Shown here piece after piece: positions 6,800-28,015 of a stretch of 31,276 nucleotides of DNA. How positions within the stretch are numbered: the first letter of the stretch is position 1; the number at the start of each line of letters is the position of its first letter. The translations under genes were made by a program, and so were the position numbers. The notes below the pieces were generated by a model. That model searched no databases, was not told where the DNA came from, and saw nothing but the letters and a program-made list of their open reading frames with translations. Source of the stretch: a virus; the IMG/VR virus record IMGVR_UViG_3300009161_000156, positions 1 to 31,276 of that record, one strand, 5' to 3'.

Positions 6800-8485
6800 A
6801 TGGCCACGATCGGTATCGGTTTTACGCTGTCGGCTAACGCCGCCAAGATGGCTGGCGGCGTTAACGAAGCCGTTAAGCAATTGGACAAAATTGGCGACGC
6901 TGCAAAAAAGGTTTCTCGCGACGTCGGCGCTTTAAAAACTCTTGCCATTGGCTCAGTGGTGGCCAAGGGTGTCGGAATGGCAGCGAATGCGTTCACGTCC
7001 GCTGCGAGCACGGCTTTTAACTACGCATCTTCCGTGGCGTCATCTGTTGACGCCATGAACGATTTATCCGATCGCATTGGAATTGGCGTGGAATCTCTGC
7101 AAGTCTTCGACATGGCAGCCAGTCTGGCTGGCGTGGAGAACGGCGCGGCGGCGCTGCAAAAACTAACGACCGTGATCGGGCAGGCCGCCGAAAGCGGCAA
7201 CACCGAAGCGTTCACCAAGCTTGGCCTGGACTTTGAGCAGCTGCAGGCCATGTCGCCAGAGGAGCAGTTCCGAGCCATCCAGCAGGCAATCTCCGCGCTG
7301 TCGACGCCGGCCGAGCGGGCTGCGGCTGCCGTGTCCTTGTTCGGCAAGTCAGGCGTCGAGCTTCTTCCCTTGATGAACCAGAACCTGGCCGAGGTAGAAG
7401 AGCGGATGCGTCGGCTCGGTGCCGTTGTCGGTGCGGATCAAGTCGAGGCTATCGGCTCAATGAACGACGCCTTAGACATGGTGAAGGCAACCTTTGAAGG
7501 CATCGTCGGCCAGGTCGTCGGCAACCTCGCGCCGGTTGTCGAGTCTCTTGCCAATGATTTCTTGGCGTTCGTCGAAGAGTGGAACAACATCGGCGGACAG
7601 AACGGCACGATTGCCGACACGATTTCAAACGCCCTGCTGGACGTGGCCGACTACTTCGCCGGAATCTTTGACAATGCCATGGCATCGTTTGACGGGTTTG
7701 GGGTGACTCTGTCGGAAGTAGGAGCCGTGTTTGAGTTTGCGGGCAACGTGTTCACGGCCGTGGCCGAGACGCTGCGGGCAGGGTTTAACTTGTTCCAAAT
7801 CTCCGGCAACGTGCTGGCCATGGGCTTGGGCAAGTTCTTGGAAGGCATTGGCTCGTGGGTGTCGAGCGACCTTGAGCAGTTCGGCAAGGACTTGGCGGCG
7901 AATGCCAAGGAGCAGGCCGACCAGAACTCAAGGGAGATGGAAGGTGCTGCATCCAACGCAGCCACTGCAGCAGGCCGGGCCATCTTTGGCGGCAACGCCG
8001 CCCAAGGTGCCGAAGGCCCAGCGAGTCGAGCTGTTGCTAACGCACGCAATCGCATGAACGATCCGGAGGCGAAAGCGGAACGCGAGCGGGAGCGAGCACA
8101 GAAAGAGGCCGACGCGAAGGCTGCTCGTGAGGCTGCGGCGGCCAAGGCCAAGGCTGAAAAAGACGCAGCCGATGCGAAGAAACGTCAAGACGAGGCAGCC
8201 AAGAAAGCGGCCGACATTGACGAGAAGATGGTGGACAAGCAAGGGCAGATTGCAGAGATTGAGGCCGGCAAGTCGGCCGCCCTCAACGGGAAGTCCAACG
8301 AGGCCCTGAAGGCGAACGACATCCGCTCCAGTGAGGGTATGGCCCAGTTCATCGCTTTGGCCACTGGGCGTGAAGATCCAGCGATCGAAGAGAACCGCAA
8401 GGCTAATGCCAAGCTTGAGGAGATCCGCAAGGAGTTGCGGGCTCTGCAGCAGGAGAAGGTCGACATCTTGGGGGCCGCGGCGTAA
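6800..8485 (+). CDS. Tape measure protein
   Basis: A 561-residue protein that sets tail length and is ejected with the DNA. Residues 1-75 are helical (AKMAGGVNEAVKQLDKIGDAAKKV). Residues about 80-260 resemble the tape measure block DAMNDLSDRIGIGVESLQVFDMAA followed by AALQKL and AVSLFGKSGVELLPLM, well known in these proteins. A hydrophobic region covers about 290-360. The C-terminus (about 400-555) is a long charged alanine/lysine/glutamate coiled coil. It is short for the family; at about 0.15 nm per residue it would give a tail near 85 nm. It follows the chaperone gene by three bases. Confidence 0.9.
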   Translation: MATIGIGFTLSANAAKMAGGVNEAVKQLDKIGDAAKKVSRDVGALKTLAIGSVVAKGVGMAANAFTSAASTAFNYASSVASSVDAMNDLSDRIGIGVESLQVFDMAASLAGVENGAAALQKLTTVIGQAAESGNTEAFTKLGLDFEQLQAMSPEEQFRAIQQAISALSTPAERAAAAVSLFGKSGVELLPLMNQNLAEVEERMRRLGAVVGADQVEAIGSMNDALDMVKATFEGIVGQVVGNLAPVVESLANDFLAFVEEWNNIGGQNGTIADTISNALLDVADYFAGIFDNAMASFDGFGVTLSEVGAVFEFAGNVFTAVAETLRAGFNLFQISGNVLAMGLGKFLEGIGSWVSSDLEQFGKDLAANAKEQADQNSREMEGAASNAATAAGRAIFGGNAAQGAEGPASRAVANARNRMNDPEAKAERERERAQKEADAKAAREAAAAKAKAEKDAADAKKRQDEAAKKAADIDEKMVDKQGQIAEIEAGKSAALNGKSNEALKANDIRSSEGMAQFIALATGREDPAIEENRKANAKLEEIRKELRALQQEKVDILGAAA

Positions 8486-9348
8486 TGGGCATCGTCAAAT
8501 ACACCGAGCTGGCCACGGTCTCGGCAAGCCGAAAGTTCGGCGAGCCGCCTGTCTTTCAGCGCAAGTGGGTGGTCGAGGTCAATGACCCGACCACGCCGCA
8601 GACCGACATCGTTAACGCACCTGGCGTTTCGTTCCTGAACCCTCACCCCGAGGCGTTCTACTGCTTGGCGATGAATGCTTCGGTGAGCAACTACAGCGGC
8701 TCCCGTTGGCACTATGAGGTGACGTGGGACTACGAGCTGCCCAAGCAGCAGAACCCCGACCAGAACCCCTTGGCTCGGCCCGACATCTGGAAGTGGACCA
8801 CCGGTGGTCTGAGCGTGCCTGCTCTGTACTACTACGACGGCGGCACGCTCAAGCCCTTGCAAAACTCTGCGAACGATTTCTTTGAGGGGGCGACCACGGA
8901 TATTTCAACGCTGCAGGCCAGCATCAGCGGCAACCGCGCCACGTTTGACTACGGGCTTGCCCAGGCCGTGGCCAACAGCATCAACAGCGACACCTATCTG
9001 GGAGGCCCGCCAGGCACCTGGAAGTGCGGCGGTATCTCTGGTCAGCCGGCCGTGGAGGTTGTCAATGAGGCCGAGATTCGGTATTGGCAAGTCGAGGTGA
9101 GCCTGGAGTATCGGCCCGACAAGTGGAACCTGCAGCTGCCCAACGTCGGCTGGAACTATCTAGAGGGCGGCACGAAGAAGCGAGCGTACGTCGTCGATCC
9201 CGACACCAGCGAGCGGGTGCCATCAAGTAACCCGCAACCTCTGAACACAGACGGCACGATCAAGTCTGGTGCTCCCGACATCCTTGAGCGACGGGTGCAG
9301 CGAGAAGTGCCATTTAACGACTACTTCGGGCAACCAACTCAACCGTAA
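8485..9348 (+). CDS. Putative distal tail protein
   Basis: A 287-residue protein encoded directly after the tape measure gene, with ATG overlapping its TAA. It is rich in aromatic residues (Trp and Tyr), has no signal peptide or membrane segment, and looks beta-rich, for example around RWHYEVTWDYEL and RYWQVEVSLEYRPDKWNLQL. Gene order places it where the distal tail or baseplate hub protein is found. The family is not recognised from the sequence alone, so a tail role is inferred from position. Confidence 0.75.
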   Translation: MGIVKYTELATVSASRKFGEPPVFQRKWVVEVNDPTTPQTDIVNAPGVSFLNPHPEAFYCLAMNASVSNYSGSRWHYEVTWDYELPKQQNPDQNPLARPDIWKWTTGGLSVPALYYYDGGTLKPLQNSANDFFEGATTDISTLQASISGNRATFDYGLAQAVANSINSDTYLGGPPGTWKCGGISGQPAVEVVNEAEIRYWQVEVSLEYRPDKWNLQLPNVGWNYLEGGTKKRAYVVDPDTSERVPSSNPQPLNTDGTIKSGAPDILERRVQREVPFNDYFGQPTQP

Positions 9349-9357
9349 GGAGCAGAC

Positions 9358-9735
9358 ATGGCAGATATCACGTACACGATCAGCGCTGCCGTCAATCGCG
9401 GAGCCTTGTCGCAGTCGCTCGTGGCATCGGGCGTTACCGCCAGCTGTAATGCCAGCGGGCTTGCTACCTATACGCTCACGCCTGGGACCAATGCGGCCGG
9501 CACAGTGGCGATCAGCACGGCCACACTGTCGAGCGTTGGCCTGTTCTTCGCTCGCAACCTTTCGACGATCAGCACTGCGGCCGTCTCGTTCGGTCAGCTG
9601 TCGGCCGGGACGTTGGTGCCCACGGTCTCGCTTCGTGGCGGTGAAGCTGCCATCGGCCGCCTGGCGGCCGGGAACTATGCCGCCATCAGCAATGTCACCG
9701 GTACGCAGCTGGTCATCTCCATCGTCGAGGGCTGA
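9358..9735 (+). CDS. Small tail-associated protein
   Basis: A 125-residue protein rich in Ala, Ser, Thr and Gly with repeated short beta strands (ATYTLTPGTNAAGTVAIST, GLFFARNLSTIST). It has a strong ribosome site (AAGGAG, seven bases before ATG). The composition resembles structural virion proteins of the tail tip or small fibre-associated proteins. It lies between the aromatic-rich tail protein and two cysteine-rich proteins in the same operon. No known family is recognised. Confidence 0.72.
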   Translation: MADITYTISAAVNRGALSQSLVASGVTASCNASGLATYTLTPGTNAAGTVAISTATLSSVGLFFARNLSTISTAAVSFGQLSAGTLVPTVSLRGGEAAIGRLAAGNYAAISNVTGTQLVISIVEG

Positions 9736-9737
9736 CC

Positions 9738-10253
9738 ATGGCCGGCCAAGCCGCGGACAATGGACCCGGACAGGACGCCGGGCAGAAGTTCGTCAAGTTT
9801 TCAAGGCAGTCCGCTCAGCGAATCGCCAAGGTGGTGCGGCAGGTAGAGCAGGGCGACCGCGTTGAGGACGGCATACACTCCAGCCCCGACATCTATCGCG
9901 TCCCGGCCAGGCTCGCGACGTTCACGGGAACATGGCAGACGGGCTCCTTCAAAACGGTCACGCTGACTGGCACGACCAACACTGTCAGCGTCATGAACTG
10001 GACCACGCCGGTGGTGGCCACGCCAGACAATCAGTCGTGCGAACGGCATGTAGTGTTCACCAAGGCTGCTGGCAGCAATGTGGCGGTCGAGATTGAGATG
10101 CACGGGAGCTGCTTCACCTGCGCTCACACCATGGACGGCATCGACTGGACGACGCTGACGGGATACGCCGCTGAGAAGACGCAGATTCTAGGGCACGGTT
10201 CCTACGGCTGCCTGACGTGGTACGACGTGTTCACCTGCACTACGGCGTCGTGA
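9738..10253 (+). CDS. Tail-region protein with C-terminal cysteines
   Basis: A 171-residue protein. Residues 1 to about 50 are polar and helical with basic residues (KFVKFSRQSAQRIAKVVRQVEQG); residues 60-170 are beta-like with six cysteines (ESCERHVVF-type, GSCFTCAHTM, GCLTWYDVFTC). The stop overlaps the ATG of the next gene. Its last part may fold with the next, also cysteine-rich, protein. No family recognised; tail-tip function is an inference from its place in the tail operon. Confidence 0.72.
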   Translation: MAGQAADNGPGQDAGQKFVKFSRQSAQRIAKVVRQVEQGDRVEDGIHSSPDIYRVPARLATFTGTWQTGSFKTVTLTGTTNTVSVMNWTTPVVATPDNQSCERHVVFTKAAGSNVAVEIEMHGSCFTCAHTMDGIDWTTLTGYAAEKTQILGHGSYGCLTWYDVFTCTTAS

Positions 10254-10741
10254 TGCCTGACTATGTCGCTCGCACGATCGCGAACAAGGTCCGCATGCAC
10301 AAGCCGGACCCTTACACGTTCAAAGTGTTCATGGAAGAGCGCGGCGACGCCCGCAAGTTGCCATGCAAGTGCTGCGCGACTTCGTGCCCGACTCAAGTCT
10401 CAATCTCGGTGTCATTCTGCGGCATGACAGTCACGGCCACTGTGCCAATACCGGGTGTTCTTGGTTTTGCACAGGAGACCCTTCCTGACGACTCGTATCT
10501 GATCGTAAGTGCTCAGATTTCCTGCACTCCGTGCGGGTGGTTTTTTGACATGGGCGTGTGTGCCTATTGCGCGGCGACGCAACAGGCGGCCTCAGATGGA
10601 TTTACGGCCGCCATTCCATTTGCGTCCACGGCCAAGGCTGATGGAACGTACTGCCCGCGGACAGGAGCAGTAACGCTTACGTGCTTCGGAGAGCAGTTCG
10701 GCATCCCCTGCGTGACCACTCCGAGCGTGAGCATCGCATGA
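10253..10741 (+). CDS. Cysteine-rich tail-region protein
   Basis: A 162-residue protein containing at least eleven cysteines, mostly in close pairs: PCKCC and SC near residues 37-46, SFCG, ISCTPCG, GVCAYC, then single cysteines to the end. Spacing suggests zinc binding or disulfide bonds; no signal peptide is visible, so zinc is more likely if it acts in the cytoplasm. The ATG at 10253 shares bases with the previous stop and is preferred over an in-frame GTG at 10217. Family not recognised. Confidence 0.72.
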   Translation: MPDYVARTIANKVRMHKPDPYTFKVFMEERGDARKLPCKCCATSCPTQVSISVSFCGMTVTATVPIPGVLGFAQETLPDDSYLIVSAQISCTPCGWFFDMGVCAYCAATQQAASDGFTAAIPFASTAKADGTYCPRTGAVTLTCFGEQFGIPCVTTPSVSIA

Positions 10742-11454
10742 ACATCCTGACCGCTACCGCAGGCCGCCCCGAGATCGCCCGCGTGTGGTGTTCGGCCGTG
10801 TCCGCCACGCTCACGACTCCGCACGTGGCCACCGTTCTCTACACCGGGGCGGATCCGCAGTGCTCCTGCGACGTGCTCGAGGTGCCCGCCATCAGCCCGG
10901 TGATAGGCATGACCCTCGACCGGTACTGCGACGGCCCGGTACGAATGTTCCTTGAGGAAGACATGATTCCGGTGCGGCCGTGGTGTGTCGACGATTACCC
11001 CGGCCGCCTGGTGGCGGCACAGGGCAACAACCAAGGTCAGCCGTGGCCGGCGTTGACCATCATGCGGGACGTTGGCGAGCCCGCCACGGCGATCGTTCCG
11101 CAGCGGTTCGTGCGGGACGGTGGCTGCCCGGACTGGCTGCCGACCGACCTGTGCGAGCCGGCCCTGCGAGCCAACGCCAAGGTGCTCGGCCAGCACTTCC
11201 TGCACCTCGACAAGATGTACCGCCAGGACGTGCCCGAGGCCGACGCCAAGAACGAGCTGCTCGAGCTGCTACGTTCGCGGTTCGCGAATCACGAACCGGC
11301 CCGCCGCGGCTTGGGCGACATGGTGGCCGCGGGCCTCTCTGCCATCGGCATCACGCCCGAGCGTGTGAGCAGGGCTCTTGGCGTCAAGGACTGCGGATGC
11401 AAGGGCAGGGCCGAGGCTCTTAACGCACTCGGCCGCCGCATCGGGATCGGTTGA
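10738..11454 (+). CDS. Tail-operon protein with C-terminal CGCKGR motif
   Basis: A 238-residue protein that overlaps the preceding gene by four bases. The N-terminal half has the feel of a nucleotide-sugar enzyme (NILTATAGRPEIARVW, then MFLEEDMIPVRPW around residues 70-82 where a metal-binding acidic cluster could sit), but this is weak. The C-terminus ends in DCGCKGRAEALNALGRRIG, a short motif (CxC-x-x-R followed by a leucine/asparagine helix) seen at the ends of various phage proteins, preceded by a helix LGDMVAAGLSAIGIT. Function unknown; possibly a virion-associated modification enzyme. Confidence 0.7.
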   Translation: MNILTATAGRPEIARVWCSAVSATLTTPHVATVLYTGADPQCSCDVLEVPAISPVIGMTLDRYCDGPVRMFLEEDMIPVRPWCVDDYPGRLVAAQGNNQGQPWPALTIMRDVGEPATAIVPQRFVRDGGCPDWLPTDLCEPALRANAKVLGQHFLHLDKMYRQDVPEADAKNELLELLRSRFANHEPARRGLGDMVAAGLSAIGITPERVSRALGVKDCGCKGRAEALNALGRRIGIG

Positions 11455-13850: not shown

Positions 13851-15137
13851 ATGTCATGGACGATTCACCACGGCGACTGCCGCGAAGTCATGGCGACACT
13901 CAACGCCGAGAGCGTTGACGCGATCGTCTGCGACCCGCCCTATGGGCTGTCGTTCATGGGCAAGGGCTGGGATCACGGTGTACCTGGCCAATCGTTTTGG
14001 GCGGAGGCGTTACGAGTCGCGAAGCCCGGCGCGCACCTGCTGGCGTTTGGCGGGACTCGCACCTATCACCGGCTCGCGTGTGCCATCGAAGATGCGGGCT
14101 GGGAGATTCGGGATTGTGTGATGTGGGTGTACGGCAGCGGCTTTCCGAAGTCGCACGACGTGAGCAAGGCGATTGACAAGGCGGCTGGGGCGGAGCGGGA
14201 GACAGCCGGCCCGAAGGTGTACGCCGGCGGGCATATTCAGAATCATTCCGGCGTTGCTCACGGCGGAAGCTACTGCGGCTTCGATCACTCTGGCACCACG
14301 ATGGCAACCACCCCCGCCACCAACGCCGCCCGCCAGTGGTCCGGCTGGGGCACGGCCCTCAAGCCCGCATGGGAGCCGATCATCGTGGCCCGCAAACCGC
14401 TGCCCGGAACGGTGGCGGAGAATGTGTTGACGTGGGGCACGGGCGGGATCAATGTGGATGGGTGTAGGGTGGGTGTGCGAACACAAAATGAGAGCGGCTG
14501 GAGTAAGACCGGCAGCAAGGCCGGCGAAGATCGATCCATGAGCGGCGCGAACTACGAACGTGAAGCAAAGGACGAAGCTGGCACAGGCCGCTGGCCCGCC
14601 AACCTGATCCACGACGGCAGCGAGGAGGTGGTGGGGCTGTTTCCGGTCACAAAGAGCGGAGGCCAGAACGCCACCAGCGAATCGCAGCCTGGTTACGCAG
14701 GCGGCTGGACGCGGCCTGGTGGTAAAGGCCATCACGACTTTGGCTCCGCCGCCCGCTTCTTCTACTGCGCGAAAGCGTCGAAGGCGGATCGGGATGAAGG
14801 GTGCGAGGGGCTTCCGCAGACGATCAAGCAGAGTGTGGCCCACGGCGACAAGCGGCACGGAACGCTGCCCTACACGAACGAGCCGCGCGAGATGAAACCA
14901 CGGCCGCGAGGCAACCATCACCCCACCGTCAAGCCCACCGCCCTCATGCGTTACCTCTGCCGGCTCGTGACGCCACGCGGCGGCGTAGTGCTCGACCCGT
15001 TCGCGGGCTCCGGCTCCACGGGCAAAGCAGCCGTGGCCGAGGGCTTCCGGTTCATCGGCATCGAACGCGAGGCGGAATACGTTGAGATCGCGAAGGCGAG
15101 GATCACTGCAGCCACTCCAAAGGACACGCTGTTCTAG
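13851..15137 (+). CDS. DNA methyltransferase, beta class (N4-cytosine or N6-adenine)
   Basis: A 428-residue site-specific DNA methyltransferase using S-adenosylmethionine. The catalytic motif IV DPPY is at residues 28-31 and the cofactor-binding motif I, FAGSGSTG, near 384-391; motif IV first, motif I last with the recognition region between them defines the beta class. A typical HPTVKP segment precedes motif I. No restriction endonuclease gene is next to it, so it is probably a solitary phage methylase that protects phage DNA or alters host methylation. It starts at ATG with no clear ribosome site. Its TAG stop overlaps the integrase stop in a shared CTAG. Confidence 0.9.
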   Translation: MSWTIHHGDCREVMATLNAESVDAIVCDPPYGLSFMGKGWDHGVPGQSFWAEALRVAKPGAHLLAFGGTRTYHRLACAIEDAGWEIRDCVMWVYGSGFPKSHDVSKAIDKAAGAERETAGPKVYAGGHIQNHSGVAHGGSYCGFDHSGTTMATTPATNAARQWSGWGTALKPAWEPIIVARKPLPGTVAENVLTWGTGGINVDGCRVGVRTQNESGWSKTGSKAGEDRSMSGANYEREAKDEAGTGRWPANLIHDGSEEVVGLFPVTKSGGQNATSESQPGYAGGWTRPGGKGHHDFGSAARFFYCAKASKADRDEGCEGLPQTIKQSVAHGDKRHGTLPYTNEPREMKPRPRGNHHPTVKPTALMRYLCRLVTPRGGVVLDPFAGSGSTGKAAVAEGFRFIGIEREAEYVEIAKARITAATPKDTLF

Positions 15138-16048
15138 GTACCCGGCCCGGTCAGGTCTAGCGGCGGCAGGAAGTCGAGGGCCGACTCGACCCCGGTGATT
15201 CGCTCGTCGTAGTAGTGGGTCTCGGCCATTTCCTCAGAGGAGTGCCCGAGCTGTTTCTTGGCCGACTTGCCGGCCAGCTTGAGGTATGACGCAGTCGATT
15301 TGCGGATGCTGTGAAACGGGTGGTACGGGACCCCGGCCGTGCGGCACAGCACCTTGAGGCTGGCATAGCAGCTCAAAATCTTCCGATCCTCCAGCCAAGG
15401 CCATACCAGGGCGTCCGCCGGGCCTTGATGCACAGCCATGAGCCGGGCCAGCTCGGGCGTGATCTGCCGCGTAATCGTCTCCTGGCGGCCCTTGCGGGTT
15501 GCTGCGAGAAACGTGATGGTGCACCGCTCCAGATCGACCTCGCGCCACCGCAGGGCCAGCACGGCCCCGATACGCTCGCCGGTCTGGAACATGGCCTGCA
15601 ATTTCGTCAGCCAGTACCAGGCGGCCGGCTTGCCCGCTACGAGGCCCTTGCGATGCCGGGCGGCTCTGACCAGGGCGCTGAGCTCGTCGACCGTGTAGGC
15701 CACAGGGCGGGGCTTGGGAACGCGGGGACGGGCGTAGTCGGGGAACTCGAGCAGCTCGCCGTTGGTCTTCTTCCAGCGCTTTTTGGCGAGCCAAGTCCAC
15801 AGGCTTCGCAGGTGGGCAGAGTCTTTTGCGAGGCTCGCCGGGCTAATCATCTTGAACCTGCTATGCTGCGTCGTCTGACGCCAGCGCAGGAACTTGGCCG
15901 CGGTCAGGTCGTCGAGATCATCGACGGTCGGCTCGTGGCCCAGAAAGTCGCGGAATCGGTCGAGCGTTGCCTCGTACATGGCAACGGTCCTGTCGCACAG
16001 ATTCTTCAGCGGCGCGACTCGGTCTAGCAGTAGTTCTCGCAGGGTCAT
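15134..16048 (-). CDS. int: Tyrosine recombinase (phage integrase)
   Basis: A 304-residue integrase that inserts the phage genome into the host chromosome. The N-terminal core-binding (SAM-like) domain covers about residues 15-90. The catalytic domain has all key residues: Arg159 in TGERIGAVLALRW, Lys186 in the beta-hairpin, His246 and Arg249 in HSIRKS, His269 in LGHSS and the nucleophile at Tyr279 or Tyr280 in THYYDER. The ATG has AGGAG six to seven bases upstream. It runs opposite to nearly all other genes, and its promoter region faces the control region. The host attachment site could not be identified. Confidence 0.93.
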   Translation of the reverse strand: MTLRELLLDRVAPLKNLCDRTVAMYEATLDRFRDFLGHEPTVDDLDDLTAAKFLRWRQTTQHSRFKMISPASLAKDSAHLRSLWTWLAKKRWKKTNGELLEFPDYARPRVPKPRPVAYTVDELSALVRAARHRKGLVAGKPAAWYWLTKLQAMFQTGERIGAVLALRWREVDLERCTITFLAATRKGRQETITRQITPELARLMAVHQGPADALVWPWLEDRKILSCYASLKVLCRTAGVPYHPFHSIRKSTASYLKLAGKSAKKQLGHSSEEMAETHYYDERITGVESALDFLPPLDLTGPGT

Positions 16049-21328: not shown

Positions 21329-21498
21329 CCGTCTCCGAGATCACCTGCATCGCCCTCGGGATGCTGTTCAACGTACTGACGTTTTTCCTCGGCACCGCCG
21401 TGGGCGTCTCCCTAGTGAAGAGAAAGGACTCTCACAATGACCGCGACCGCTACGAAACCGAAGGTTTCCAGTACTACAATCCGCCTTCCGAGAACTGA
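21325..21498 (+). CDS. Single-pass membrane microprotein overlapping dnaN
   Basis: A 57-residue protein starting at GTG 21325, which overlaps the previous stop. Residues about 6-30 (TCIALGMLFNVLTFFLGTAVGVSLV) form one hydrophobic transmembrane helix; the remainder is a short polar tail. Its last 62 bases run into the sliding clamp gene in another frame. The start overlap and the clear helix support coding. Function unknown. Confidence 0.55.
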   Translation: MTVSEITCIALGMLFNVLTFFLGTAVGVSLVKRKDSHNDRDRYETEGFQYYNPPSEN

Positions 21499-22552
21499 GC
21501 TGGAGGCGGCGCTCATGGCCATCAAGCCGGCGACGCCGGCCAGGCCGTCCAAGCCCATCTTGGCCAACTGCCGGATCGGTGACGGTCTAATCACGGGCAC
21601 GGACCTCGAGGTGCGGATCGACCGTGCCATCAGCGAGCACTGCGAGGCGTTCCTCGTGCCGCACGACCGGCTTCTGCAGATCGTGAAGGCCGCCAGCGGC
21701 GACGACGTGACGCTGAAGGCGAGCGGCACCACCGTCAGCATCAAGTGCGGCGGCGGATCGTGGACGCTGCCCACGGAGGACGTGGCCGAATACCCGACGT
21801 GGGAGCCGGCCGATCTGAAGGCTGTGTGCCGGCTGCCGGCGGACCAGTTCGCTAGGGCTGCCAAAAACACGACGTACGCCACAGACATAAAGTCGAGCCG
21901 CTACGCTCTTGGAGGTGTGCTCATCGAGGTCGCCGGCGGCAACCCGACGTGGGTCGCCACGGACGGTCATCGGCTGTCGTGCGTCGAGACCGAGACCGAC
22001 CAGGCGGTGGACGACCGGCAGACGCTGGTCCCTTGCCGGGTGCTCGACATTGTGGCCGGCATGGCCACGGGCGACGGCAGCGTACAGGTCGAGGCCAACG
22101 CCAAGGAGGTGCGTTTTGACCTGGGCGGCACGACCGTCACGGGCCGGCTGACCGAAGGACGTTTGCCTTCTAGTTGGCGTGATCTGATCAGGGCAAAAGA
22201 CAACGAGCAGGCCACCGTGCTCAACGTGCGCGAGCTGGAGGCCGCGGTGCGGTCGGCCGCGATCGTTACGAGCGAGCAGAGCAAGGGCGTGGACTTGGCG
22301 TGGACGGCCGACACGCTGGTCATCTCGGGCCGTTCGTCGGAGTACGGCGAGTCAACCGTGAAGTGCCCGCTGGTGGCCGCCGGTTCGACAAGCACAACTT
22401 ATGTTGACCCGCGCTACGTGGTTGAGTTCCTGAAGTCGATCCCGGCCGACGAGGAGCCGCAGGTCGACGTCTACGCCACGGATCCGCAGAGCCGGGTGCT
22501 TCTGAAGTGCGGCCCGTACACGGGCGTGATCATGCCACTGGCGAAGGAGTAA
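21437..22552 (+). CDS. dnaN: DNA polymerase III beta subunit (sliding clamp)
   Basis: A 371-residue protein, the normal length of bacterial DnaN, which forms a ring around DNA and holds the polymerase. Visible family features are LPRTELEAALMAIKPA at the start, RYALGGVLIEV and WVATDGHRLSCVET (the highly conserved ATDGHRL block), and the C-terminal GPYTGVIMPLAKE resembling the YxYVVMPM end of DnaN. The phage has no polymerase gene in this window, so the clamp probably recruits host polymerase to phage DNA. ATG at 21437 follows AGAGAAAGGA. The next gene starts three bases after the stop. Confidence 0.88.
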   Translation: MTATATKPKVSSTTIRLPRTELEAALMAIKPATPARPSKPILANCRIGDGLITGTDLEVRIDRAISEHCEAFLVPHDRLLQIVKAASGDDVTLKASGTTVSIKCGGGSWTLPTEDVAEYPTWEPADLKAVCRLPADQFARAAKNTTYATDIKSSRYALGGVLIEVAGGNPTWVATDGHRLSCVETETDQAVDDRQTLVPCRVLDIVAGMATGDGSVQVEANAKEVRFDLGGTTVTGRLTEGRLPSSWRDLIRAKDNEQATVLNVRELEAAVRSAAIVTSEQSKGVDLAWTADTLVISGRSSEYGESTVKCPLVAAGSTSTTYVDPRYVVEFLKSIPADEEPQVDVYATDPQSRVLLKCGPYTGVIMPLAKE

Positions 22553-22958: not shown

Positions 22959-23225
22959 ATGAACAAACCAAACGACACTAACGAGCCGTCTCCTGCATCC
23001 GCTGGTTCTCAGCCAGTGGCTGTGTCGGTGCATATCGACAACTCGGCTTGCGCGTTTCCTGACATCCGCCCGCTGCGGAGGCCGCGACTTCTGACCAACG
23101 ATGAGGAGGAGGCAATCAGGGGGGCTTTGGGGTGGCTGCTATGGTGTGACCAGAACAGCCATCTAGGAGACGCTGGCAGGAAGGATATTGCGACACTTCG
23201 CGGCCTACTGGAACAACTGGGCTGA
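22959..23225 (+). CDS. Small hypothetical protein
   Basis: An 88-residue protein preceded by GAGGAG. The first 45 residues are polar and low-complexity; the C-terminal half is helical (DEEEAIRGALGWLLWCDQNSH, GRKDIATLRGLLEQLG). No motif is recognised. It is the last gene before a 157-base gap that carries a hairpin, a dyad and the RusA promoter-like site. Confidence 0.65.
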   Translation: MNKPNDTNEPSPASAGSQPVAVSVHIDNSACAFPDIRPLRRPRLLTNDEEEAIRGALGWLLWCDQNSHLGDAGRKDIATLRGLLEQLG

Positions 23226-23382: not shown

Positions 23383-23790
23383 ATGGCGATCACGTTCAGC
23401 GTTCCGGGCGACCCAGTGCCGCAGCCGCGGGCCAGGGTTGTCGTTAGGCAAGGCAAGCCGCACGGCTATGTGCCAAGTGAGCACCCGATTCACGCATATC
23501 GCGCCGCAATAGCGGCTGCGGCAATCGCCGCCGGTGCCAAGCCGATTGAAAGAGCTCCGTTGACGATGGTCATTGATTGGGTTTTTGTGCGTCCTAAAAG
23601 TCACTTCAACAAGGATGGCACGCTTAAGCCTGGAAAGCCGATCATGCCGCGTGCAGACAACAAAAACTTACTGAGCGGTGTTGAGGACGCACTGAACGGC
23701 ATCGCCTACCAGGACGATGGCCAGATCGGAAGGCACGTCATGGAACGCACGTGGGGAACCCAGGGACGCACGACCGTGCGAATCACATGA
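23383..23790 (+). CDS. rusA: RusA-family Holliday junction resolvase
   Basis: A 135-residue endonuclease that cuts four-way DNA junctions. Family features are the start ITFSVPGDPVPQPRARV, the acidic metal-binding set around RADNKNLLSGVEDALNGIAYQDDGQI (Asp92, Asp102, Asp111 and Asp112), and the usual length. It would resolve branched DNA made by RecT-driven replication before packaging. Its TGA overlaps the ATG of the radical SAM gene, so the two are co-translated. No ribosome site is visible at its start. Confidence 0.88.
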   Translation: MAITFSVPGDPVPQPRARVVVRQGKPHGYVPSEHPIHAYRAAIAAAAIAAGAKPIERAPLTMVIDWVFVRPKSHFNKDGTLKPGKPIMPRADNKNLLSGVEDALNGIAYQDDGQIGRHVMERTWGTQGRTTVRIT

Positions 23791-24638
23791 AGCTCGTCTG
23801 GTTCCCCGCGTGGACGTGTCAGAACTACGGGCCGAGCGGCACGAGCTTCGGTCCTAAGTGCCCCTACTGCCCGTACGGAATCGACAAGGCAACCAAGCGT
23901 CTGGTGTTTGAGAACCGCATCACCTCGTCAGACGAGCGTGCCGATGCGGCGGCGCTCATCGAGTTCTTTAAAGCGAACCACGACGCCATGGGTGGGCACC
24001 TCGAGATCAGCGGCGGCGAAGCCCTGATGCGGCAAGACCTGCCCGAGATCCTAGCCGCGATCCCGCACCGCTGGGCGATCACGTCCAACACGCTCATGTC
24101 CACCGCGATCCAGCGGATGATCGAGAACTGGTCGCTCGCTAGGTGCGTGGCGTGGACCGCGAGCTGGCACCCGTGCAGCGGCATGGAGACCTCGTTCGAG
24201 CGATCCATTCGCATGCTGGCCGAGTGCAACCGGCACGCCCGGGTCACGGTCGTGATCGCCGACGCCACGATCGGCCGGCTGCGAGAGACGCTGGAGTTCC
24301 TTGAGACGCTGCCGCTGGCAGGCGTAAACTTCCACCTCGACACGCACGGGCAGTCCGACGTCTCGCATCTCAAGGCCGCGGCGGACGAGATCCTCGGGCC
24401 GGGCGCTGTCTACCTCGCTGGGCCGCCGCCGCAGGGCAAGATGTGCAACCGGCACGATGGGCTCATGGCGGTCGGGGCGGACGGCTCGCTGTACCAGTGC
24501 GTCACGTTCGCTTATCAGGACATCGAGCCTATCTGCCAGGTTGACGGCAGCGTTCTGCTGGATCAACTGCCGCGTCGCGTCGAGCGGTGCGACGCCGTTT
24601 GCTTCGCCTGTTGTGACCACATCAAACACATGCCATGA
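23787..24638 (+). CDS. Radical SAM protein, atypical cysteine motif, SPASM-like tail
   Basis: A 283-residue protein that appears to be a radical S-adenosylmethionine enzyme. The cysteines of the iron-sulfur cluster site are spread: Cys11, then CPYC at 25-28, that is C-x13-C-x2-C instead of the usual C-x3-C-x2-C. GHLEISGGEALM (GGE at 76-78) is the SAM-binding motif. Near the C-terminus MCNRHDGLMAVGADGSLYQC and later CDAVCFACC resemble the cysteine-rich SPASM extension that holds extra clusters. Substrate unknown; candidates are a peptide, a modified base or a sugar. Start and stop overlap RusA and the glycosyltransferase gene. Confidence 0.75.
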   Translation: MKLVWFPAWTCQNYGPSGTSFGPKCPYCPYGIDKATKRLVFENRITSSDERADAAALIEFFKANHDAMGGHLEISGGEALMRQDLPEILAAIPHRWAITSNTLMSTAIQRMIENWSLARCVAWTASWHPCSGMETSFERSIRMLAECNRHARVTVVIADATIGRLRETLEFLETLPLAGVNFHLDTHGQSDVSHLKAAADEILGPGAVYLAGPPPQGKMCNRHDGLMAVGADGSLYQCVTFAYQDIEPICQVDGSVLLDQLPRRVERCDAVCFACCDHIKHMP

Positions 24639-25540
24639 ACATCACGCACGCTGATCTCGCCGCCCATAATCCCGACCAACTGCATCCCGCGGTGAGCCGC
24701 GAATGTGCGCCGCTCTACTGGGACGCAGTCGCCAGCGGCGAAGAGATTGCGAGTCGCACCGACGTCACGATCGTGGGTCTCTGCCGCAACTCGCAGCCGT
24801 GGATTCAGTTCAACACCCAACGCATCGAGCAGCTCGGCGAGCGTTTTGCCAACTGGCGGGCGTTCGTCTACGAGAACGATTCCGAGGACGGAACCGCCGA
24901 GTTCCTGCGGGAGTGGGCGGCGTCCTGTAAACACGCCAGCGTCGAGACCGTCACGCACAACCGGCCGATGCTGTCATCGGAGAAGACCCGCCGGCGGACG
25001 GTCGCCCTCGCTGAATACAGGGCACGCTGTCAGGCGTGGGCGCGGGACAACAAGCCAGCGGGCCTGCCGCACCGGGTCATCGTCATCGATCTGGATACGT
25101 GGGGCGGCTGGTCGGACCACGGCGTCATGACCGGGTTGTTTCACCTCGAGGACCGGCCGGGGGCCGCGGGCATGGCGAGCGTATCCAGCATCGAGGTGCC
25201 GGTGTCGTCTGCCCCGTCAGGCCGGCTGCGAATCCACTACGACGCATGGGCATACCGGGCGAACCACTGGGCCGAGCACGACATGAACTGGTTCCCGCAC
25301 TGGTGGCCGCCGGTGGGCAGCGATCCGCTGCCCTGCCGCTCGGCGTTCGGAGGGCTCACGATCTACCGGCCCGAGGCGTTCTTCGCCGGCACGTACAGCG
25401 GCGAGGACTGCGAGCACGTCACGTTTCATCGGAGCATCCGTGAGGCCAGTTTGCTCGGGATGTTTTTGAACCCGAGCCAACGAATGGTCATGAACTGGAT
25501 GGAGCCGGCAGATGCGGGGCACAGTCTCGACGGCGTGTAG
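24635..25540 (+). CDS. Glycosyltransferase-like protein coupled to the radical SAM gene
   Basis: A 301-residue protein resembling GT-A-fold transferases of the CAP59/Anp1-like type. The signs are TIVGLCRNSQPWIQFN, FVYENDSEDGTAEFLREW (residues 78-94), VIVIDLDTWGG with the metal-binding DLD at 152-154, and a C-terminal GEDCEHVTFHRSIRE block. It starts at an ATGA overlap with the radical SAM gene, so both should be made together in fixed ratio. The acceptor is unknown: DNA base, peptide, virion or cell-surface sugar. It is separate in sequence from the GT-like protein at 2241. Confidence 0.75.
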   Translation: MNITHADLAAHNPDQLHPAVSRECAPLYWDAVASGEEIASRTDVTIVGLCRNSQPWIQFNTQRIEQLGERFANWRAFVYENDSEDGTAEFLREWAASCKHASVETVTHNRPMLSSEKTRRRTVALAEYRARCQAWARDNKPAGLPHRVIVIDLDTWGGWSDHGVMTGLFHLEDRPGAAGMASVSSIEVPVSSAPSGRLRIHYDAWAYRANHWAEHDMNWFPHWWPPVGSDPLPCRSAFGGLTIYRPEAFFAGTYSGEDCEHVTFHRSIREASLLGMFLNPSQRMVMNWMEPADAGHSLDGV

Positions 25541-25898
25541 CACGTTTCAGGCGACGCTGCGTAAGGTCTGGTCATCCGGCTCGACGTACGCCGAGATGAC
25601 GCAGTTTTTCGGCGTCACGAAAGACCAGATCTTTCGGCTTCGCGACCGATTGAAACTGCCGCTGCGTCTGGACCGCAGCACCCGCAAGAAACCGCCGCGG
25701 CACAAAGACCCGACGCCCGAGGAAATCGCCGCTGCCTGTGCCGCCCTGCGGGAGAAGCACCTGGCCGACAGGCGAAACGAGCCGACGTCGCGATCGTACC
25801 GCACCACCGAGCTGGATCTGATCTCGTTCCGGTTTCAACGCTCGCACGACATCCAGGCCGACTCGATCGAGCAGCTCATCGACGACTTGAGGGAGTGA
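25512..25898 (+). CDS. Helix-turn-helix protein
   Basis: A 128-residue protein overlapping the glycosyltransferase gene by 29 bases. TLRKVWSSGSTYAEMTQFFGVTKDQIFRLRDRLKLPLR (residues about 15-52) is a helix-turn-helix of the GcrA/resolvase-like type with recognition helix TKDQIFRLRDRL. A basic linker and a charged helical C-terminus follow. In phages such proteins regulate late transcription or resemble small terminase subunits; the distance from the genome end makes the first more likely. Confidence in DNA binding is moderate. Confidence 0.7.
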   Translation: MRGTVSTACSTFQATLRKVWSSGSTYAEMTQFFGVTKDQIFRLRDRLKLPLRLDRSTRKKPPRHKDPTPEEIAAACAALREKHLADRRNEPTSRSYRTTELDLISFRFQRSHDIQADSIEQLIDDLRE

Positions 25899-27088: not shown

Positions 27089-28015
27089 ATGGCTGAACCT
27101 CACGCCTTTGGCTATTTGCCCGACCCGGCTGGCGCTGATGCCTTCGTGGCCACGCTGCCGCACCCGACGCTGGCGTCGGCGGCCCCCGGCTTCACGCCTG
27201 ACGAGCGGCGTGAGGTGATGCTGTACCCGGCTCTGTTGCAGTGCCTGCCCGGCTGGCGGCGCGGTTCGCAGGGTTCTGTCGGGAGCTGCGTCGGCTGGGG
27301 CTCAAGCCTCGGGGTCGACTTCGTCGCTGCCTGCGACGTCGTGCACCGCCAGGAGCCCGAGGTCGTGCGGGCTCGCACCATCGAGAGCAGCCTATACGGA
27401 TTCTCTCGCGTGGAGGCCCGCGGCCAGCGGTCGAACGGTGGAGGCGACGGGTCCACGGGTTTCCACGCGGCCAAGGCCATCCGTGATTACGGGTGCCTTC
27501 ACTATGGCATCGACTACGGCGGCATATTAATCCGTGAGGAAAACAAGCAGCAGCGAGACCGGGACTGGGGCCGCAACGGTGTGCCCGACGAGCTCGAGCC
27601 GTACGCCAAGCTGCGGCGGTGCAGCGAGACGACGCTAGCCATCAACTTCGAGCAGGCGGCCGCTGCGATCCAGAACGGATACCCGGTGGTGGTGTGCTCG
27701 GGCCAAGGGTTCAGCATGGCCCGGGACGAGGACGGGTTCTGCCGGCCTGGTGGTGTTTGGTGGCACTGTATGTGCCTCTGTGGTGTCAGGTGGGGCAAGC
27801 GTCCTGGCCTCTTATGCTGCAACAGTTGGGGAGAGAGTAATACAGTCGGGCGGCACTACCCAGAGACGATGCCGCAGTCAGTACGCAATTGCTCCTTTTG
27901 GATCGACGCGGCCACGTGCACCAAGATGCTCTCGGGCCGTGACTCCTACGTCTACGCCGGCTACAGCGGCTTTCAGCCCACGCAGCTCCCCGACTGGACT
28001 GGAGGTGTGCTGTGA
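27089..28015 (+). CDS. Papain-family (C1) cysteine protease-like protein
   Basis: A 308-residue protein with the full papain catalytic set: Gln61 and Cys67 in GSQGSVGSCVGWG, separated by six residues as in papain; His226 in GVWWHCM; and Asn245 in NSWGE. The order Gln, Cys, His, Asn and the NSWG motif are diagnostic of C1 peptidases. There is no signal peptide. It precedes a lipoprotein and two membrane proteins, so it could be an unusual endolysin-like or lysis-linked protease, or act on host proteins. Phages commonly use CHAP or NlpC/P60 enzymes for lysis, so a true C1-type is uncommon. Confidence 0.75.
   Translation: MAEPHAFGYLPDPAGADAFVATLPHPTLASAAPGFTPDERREVMLYPALLQCLPGWRRGSQGSVGSCVGWGSSLGVDFVAACDVVHRQEPEVVRARTIESSLYGFSRVEARGQRSNGGGDGSTGFHAAKAIRDYGCLHYGIDYGGILIREENKQQRDRDWGRNGVPDELEPYAKLRRCSETTLAINFEQAAAAIQNGYPVVVCSGQGFSMARDEDGFCRPGGVWWHCMCLCGVRWGKRPGLLCCNSWGESNTVGRHYPETMPQSVRNCSFWIDAATCTKMLSGRDSYVYAGYSGFQPTQLPDWTGGVL

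Follow-up and report, generated by a model that had tools for sequence, protein, structure and literature searches.

The locus at 23787–25540 of a phage genome, in which a radical SAM (rSAM) gene overlaps a glycosyltransferase (GT) gene, raises the question of whether the two enzymes act together and, if so, on what they act. The sequence analysed here (the window) corresponds to an entire IMG/VR virus record, 31,276 bases long. Pfam and PHROG searches identified genes for a major capsid protein, a tape-measure protein, an exonuclease, a DNA methylase, an integrase (15134–16048, minus strand), RecT, a sliding clamp and RusA, and this gene set marks the source virus as a probable temperate tailed phage. 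Its clamp homologue (DNA polymerase III β subunit, 21437–22552; PF02767, E = 5e-17) is encoded by a small temperate phage. A 308-residue protein encoded at 27089–28015 has papain-like features by eye and keeps its position in relatives, with no Pfam or PHROG match. GT relatives occur in metagenome-assembled (MAG) contigs named Planctomycetota and in four of 294 sampled genomes, and capsid relatives reach only about 30% identity, so that Planctomycetota is only suggested as the host phylum.

Gene layout and conservation

The upstream neighbour of the pair encodes a RusA-like Holliday junction resolvase (23383–23790, plus strand; PF05866, E = 7.6e-19; phrog_140, E = 6e-23) and ends in TGA. The rSAM gene (23787–24638, plus strand, 283 residues) begins with an ATG at 23787 that overlaps this stop codon as ATGA, and its own TGA (24636–24638) overlaps in the same manner the ATG (24635) of the GT gene (24635–25540, plus strand, 301 residues). 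The end of the GT gene is in turn overlapped by a small HTH-like gene (25512–25898, plus strand; recurrent cluster 2). Overlap through ATGA at each end of the rSAM gene, with RusA upstream, had been noted in the original prediction and is present as described; as the genes overlap, rSAM and GT are probably co-transcribed. Both flanking genes are fixed: RusA also precedes the cassette in the related loci L189 and L003, and the HTH-like gene keeps its place downstream of the GT in L003, L005 and L189. The cassette lies beside replication and recombination genes and apart from the structural genes. Neither a nucleotide-sugar synthesis gene nor a membrane transporter or an acceptor was seen in the 31-kb record.

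Two close relatives of the window were available. L002 is a near-identical record (99.99% over 9,095 bases) with an intact rSAM gene and the first 82 residues of the GT, after which the contig ends. L003 is 77% identical in DNA over the locus and carries both genes. Over the open segments shared with L003, dN/dS is 0.07–0.08 for the rSAM and 0.09–0.10 for the GT; both are thus under strong purifying selection and both proteins are maintained. At 7150–8906 the L003 contig, which appears error-prone, has several frameshifts in otherwise conserved genes, and these scattered frameshifts look like assembly errors.

The glycosyltransferase

The GT contains the motifs ENDSEDGT and DLDTWGG, on which a GT-A assignment had originally been based; ENDSxDGT arose in none of 100 shuffled sequences. 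Family loci were collected with the degenerate pattern YENDSxDGT, and searches with the window GT recognized the family in 77 loci, or 62 without duplicates. Across an alignment of 45 sequences (A4), residues Y79–S83, D85–T87, D152 and D154 are invariant. An AlphaFold (AF2) model based on this alignment has a pLDDT of 93.2 and superimposes on Mnn9 (Z = 19.1) and COLGALT1 (Z = 18.1) over 235 residues each and on GalNAc-T2 (Z = 16.1) over 225 residues. The model and the structure comparison show a GT-A fold with a DxD motif, and the product of 24635–25540 is predicted with high confidence to be a GT-A glycosyltransferase. The fold does not allow the acceptor to be inferred. The match to PF11735 (CAP59/GT69; 18.8 bits, E = 0.0014) lies under the curated cut-off of 28.8 bits, which places the protein outside that family. 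No relative of either the GT or the rSAM was found in an annotated phage collection or in a single-sequence search of the PDB, and scans of viral contigs with the patterns DLDTWGGW and CPYCPYG returned almost only unrelated frames. The family as a whole is a large one of mostly uncultured phages.

The radical SAM protein

All three features originally predicted for the rSAM, namely a SAM-binding GGE motif, a C-x13-C-x2-C cluster motif and a cysteine-rich SPASM-like tail, can be located in its sequence. The GGE lies within HLEISGGEALM; the predicted [4Fe–4S] motif (C11-x13-C25-x2-C28; residues 11–28, plus strand, 23817–23870) aligns with the CX3CX2C motif of relatives; and the tail comprises C-x17-C enclosing G-x4-C, followed by CDAVCFACC. 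Since about ten extra residues separate cluster cysteines 1 and 2 when the protein is aligned with these relatives, CX13CX2C is read as the usual motif enlarged by an insertion, on the same scaffold. The SPASM/twitch pattern CX9–15GX4C with further cysteine at the C-terminus was recognized by eye, in alignment with relatives; PF13186 and TIGR04085 gave no match to the protein.

The window rSAM scores 14.6 bits against PF04055 (E = 0.038), under the curated cut-off of 29.5 bits, which is a threshold of detection, and its superfamily membership rests on homologues, of which the rSAM of L194 reaches 40.3 bits. The best curated match is the STM4011 rSAM family (NCBIfam NF038073; E = 6.6e-7, residues 24–280), at 28.9 bits against a cut-off of 200 bits, and the protein is accordingly a distant relative of that family and no member of it. 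Profile–profile comparison with STM4011 proteins (hhalign) gave E = 1.2e-5, and BLASTP against the L189 rSAM gave E = 4e-5 at 22% identity, with GGE, SWHP, FHxD and C..GxxxxC blocks in common. A profile built from alignment A5 matched MoaA with E = 1.4e-7. The AF2 model, obtained from a six-row alignment, has a pLDDT of 49.8, too low to show the partial TIM barrel expected of the superfamily. The sequence comparisons support the assignment of the product of 23787–24638 as a divergent radical SAM protein. Viperin was considered as a relative and rejected: the matches, which include PADLOC pVip for protein P0004, span only about 90 residues of the rSAM core in P0004, L194 and L222, and the window rSAM has none.

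The window rSAM is seldom encountered: it has a single near-identical record and a single relative at 82–90%. None of its type was found among 392 genomes of Planctomycetota (the phylum of L303) in a search that had no positive control. Tandem pairs of STM4011-like rSAM genes occur in genomes of the L303 phylum (L473/L476 in G217 and L474/L477 in G244), and their products are closer to the rSAM of phage L189 than is STM4011 proper, L476 being the best. A literature search found no paper on STM4011, and homology therefore gives no indication of the rSAM substrate.

Recurrence of the pair

The co-occurrence of rSAM and GT extends well beyond the window. In L189 the order is RusA, an FkbM-like methyltransferase, rSAM, GT and the HTH gene, with all junctions overlapping or abutting. 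The L189 and window GTs are 61% identical, whereas the rSAMs share only about 22–26%; the pairing has therefore outlasted the divergence or replacement of the rSAM. Marine phages likewise carry the GT family paired with rSAMs of other lineages (L194 and L222; L182 and L154; L211 and L221). The marine GTs are only about 26–30% identical to that of the window, and for this reason their functions may differ.

An rSAM gene is present in 11 of the 46 GT-family virus records (nine with PF04055 matches, together with the window and L003). In nine of these 11 the two genes are no more than 2 kb apart, where random placement would predict 1.2 (P about 4e-8); when each rSAM lineage is represented by one record, the count is five of seven (P about 2e-4). 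For both figures the 2-kb limit was set after the data had been seen, and the records are fragments, some of them related. Conserved co-occurrence of the pair, for which the original prediction had proposed a neighbourhood search, is thus evident across phages. Among 120 phage stretches selected by the rSAM motif CNYxCxYCW, none carries this GT, and the rSAM class at large therefore has no tendency to accompany the GT; the association can be seen from the GT side only.

Two further sets of contigs bear on the distribution of such pairs. L433 (3256–4873) has the two genes side by side in reverse, the GT leading, and the SPASM portion of its rSAM falls in a different frame. L300 (1039–3302) and L262 carry phage cassettes in contigs binned as SAR202 and Alphaproteobacteria; both the GT and the rSAM of L300 score exactly as in phage contig L194, and L300 and L262 are probably phage contigs in bacterial MAG bins.

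An exchangeable slot and its possible function

In most other members of the family the slot is occupied by an FkbM methyltransferase (PF05050, E = 3e-15), a class I methyltransferase, or a GT34/8-like or GT2 glycosyltransferase, and in L005 the GT stands with neither an rSAM nor any other partner. The GT is thus accompanied by sugar-type tailoring enzymes in an exchangeable slot. Read from sequence, some marine relatives also have putative genes for a UDP-sugar dehydrogenase, a CMP-sugar synthetase, a sialyltransferase-like protein, sulfotransferases and more GTs beside the pair. These glycan-type neighbours favour modification of a surface or virion glycan. A literature search found no paper on phage FkbM cassettes. 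Upstream of RusA, an 88-residue ORF (22959–23225) has conserved ends (EPSxASAGSxPVAWA at the N-terminus and LTDEERxAI...LLERL at the C-terminus) around a variable middle; its family occurs at about 24 GT-phage loci, with or without an rSAM.

On balance, we consider it somewhat probable that rSAM and GT form an interchangeable glycan-tailoring cassette, housed in a variable slot between RusA and the small HTH gene, that alters a host surface glycan or, less likely, a virion glycan. The GT would transfer a sugar from a host-supplied nucleotide-sugar using a DxD-bound metal, and the rSAM would introduce a radical change (epimerization, dehydration, oxidation or formation of a C–C or C–S bond) in the sugar or the acceptor. 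Such a change to the surface glycan, in an infected cell or a lysogen, could then lead to superinfection exclusion or to a change of the seroconversion type; a glycan on the phage's own virion is the less likely target. As the phage is temperate and its cassette is separate from the structural genes, we rank the host envelope as the likeliest target, in line with the proposal made for pelagimyophage glycosyltransferases (PMC7029224), the virion second and DNA third. Against the glycan reading stand the lack of a nucleotide-sugar synthesis gene, transporter or acceptor in the record, the solitary GT of L005 and the low identity between marine and window GTs.

Decoration of a capsid or tail protein by the pair is an unlikely alternative. 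Capsid glycosylation is known in siphoviruses and offers a precedent, and the fold neighbours of the GT include the protein glycosyltransferases COLGALT1 and GalNAc-T2; against this, a common GT-A fold does not set the acceptor, the polysaccharide enzyme Mnn9 ranks first among the matches, and the cassette adjoins replication and recombination genes at a distance from the structural ones. That same position would suit DNA hypermodification, in which the rSAM would alter a base and the GT glucosylate it, protecting phage DNA from restriction. Radical SAM/GT pairs occur near TET/JBP genes, such a gene is present in one phage of the GT family (L147/G006), and the window encodes a DNA methylase, as originally reported (PF01555, E = 6.9e-30), which looks like an ordinary N6/N4 enzyme. 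The lack of a TET/JBP gene in the window had also been pointed out, and the record indeed gave no TET/JBP match; nor does it contain a thymidylate-synthase/hydroxymethylase gene or a confident DUF1599, the DUF1599 protein named earlier being a weak match (E = 0.029) that scores 15.2 bits where the cut-off is 25 bits. Among 38 GT-family records Tet_JBP and thymidylate synthase each occur in one, the TET gene of G006 is 7 kb from the family GT and adjoins another GT, and the neighbours across the family are sugar-type enzymes, so that we regard DNA as an unlikely target, slightly less probable than the virion, although a base modification of a new kind would be compatible with all of these findings. 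In G006 (L442) the TET/JBP dioxygenase (9221–10162; PF12851, E = 3e-23) is followed by a GT-B-like gene (10012–11106), and the two are likely to be a separate DNA-modification pair. Of the nucleic-acid or virion modification first envisaged, the enzyme classes, their coupling and the general idea therefore stand and the virion option keeps some probability, whereas the nucleic-acid reading finds no support, given the lack of TET/JBP and thymidylate-synthase-type genes in the window and their rarity in the GT family.

SPASM/twitch rSAMs with cysteine-rich tails often mature peptides, and RiPP-maturase models match the window rSAM weakly, which raises the prospect of a modified-peptide pathway with an rSAM that cross-links a small peptide and a GT that glycosylates it. 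Here the pair has no precursor-like ORF next to it (the 88-residue ORF close by belongs to a general, rSAM-independent family), no RiPP exporter was seen, and neither L003 nor L189 showed an obvious short conserved ORF accompanying the rSAM; we consider this pathway very improbable. We give equally little credence to the view that two unrelated cargo genes overlap by chance: the GT lacks a detected rSAM in 35 of the 46 records, as that view would allow, but several rSAM lineages adjoin the GT family far above random placement, and purifying selection acts on both genes.

The glycan-tailoring reading connects an extensive GT family of mostly uncultured phages with rotating tailoring enzymes, radical SAM included. 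It points to glycan chemistry as a possible means by which phages compete with one another or counter the surface defences of their hosts; it also provides a small two-gene system for testing rSAM chemistry on a glycan. More speculatively, and with rather low expectation, the rSAM with its lengthened cluster motif might catalyse a radical reaction of a new kind, either on a glycan specified by the phage or, with no TET/JBP step, on glycosylated DNA, the GT family being a platform for swapped tailoring enzymes of unrelated chemistry.

Comparison with known systems

Phage glycan cassettes are already known, as are rSAM cassettes in the GT-bearing regions of pelagimyophages. What appears to be new is that a small temperate phage encodes an STM4011-like rSAM with a lengthened motif, together with evidence that one phage GT family is recurrently partnered with rSAMs of different lineages. 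The STM4011 family is the best curated match of the L189 rSAM as well as of the window rSAM, covers both over nearly their full length and shares with them the CPY/FC...GEAL, [ST]-x-HP and C-x..GxxxxC blocks; the window protein differs in its score far below the family cut-off, in the ten-residue insertion in the cysteine motif and in its phage rather than chromosomal setting. Mnn9 (GT62) and COLGALT1 (GT25) have the GT-A fold in common with the window GT but are only 12–13% identical to it, and their acceptors are not transferable. The clusters linked to TET/JBP resemble the locus in that an rSAM adjoins a GT, and differ in the TET/JBP gene itself, which is absent from the window and generally from the GT family. 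In pelagimyophages, a host-recognition cluster contains radical SAM cassettes together with glycosyltransferases, and the latter were interpreted by the authors as modifying the O-chain (PMC7029224). Theirs are T4-like myophages with the genes in the tail-fibre region and an rSAM sequence very different from that of the window, a small temperate phage whose cassette lies beside RusA. In both, nevertheless, a phage carries rSAM and GT genes within a hypervariable region, and the marine GT-family members L194, L222 and L211 look to be of the same kind as the pelagimyophage cassettes.
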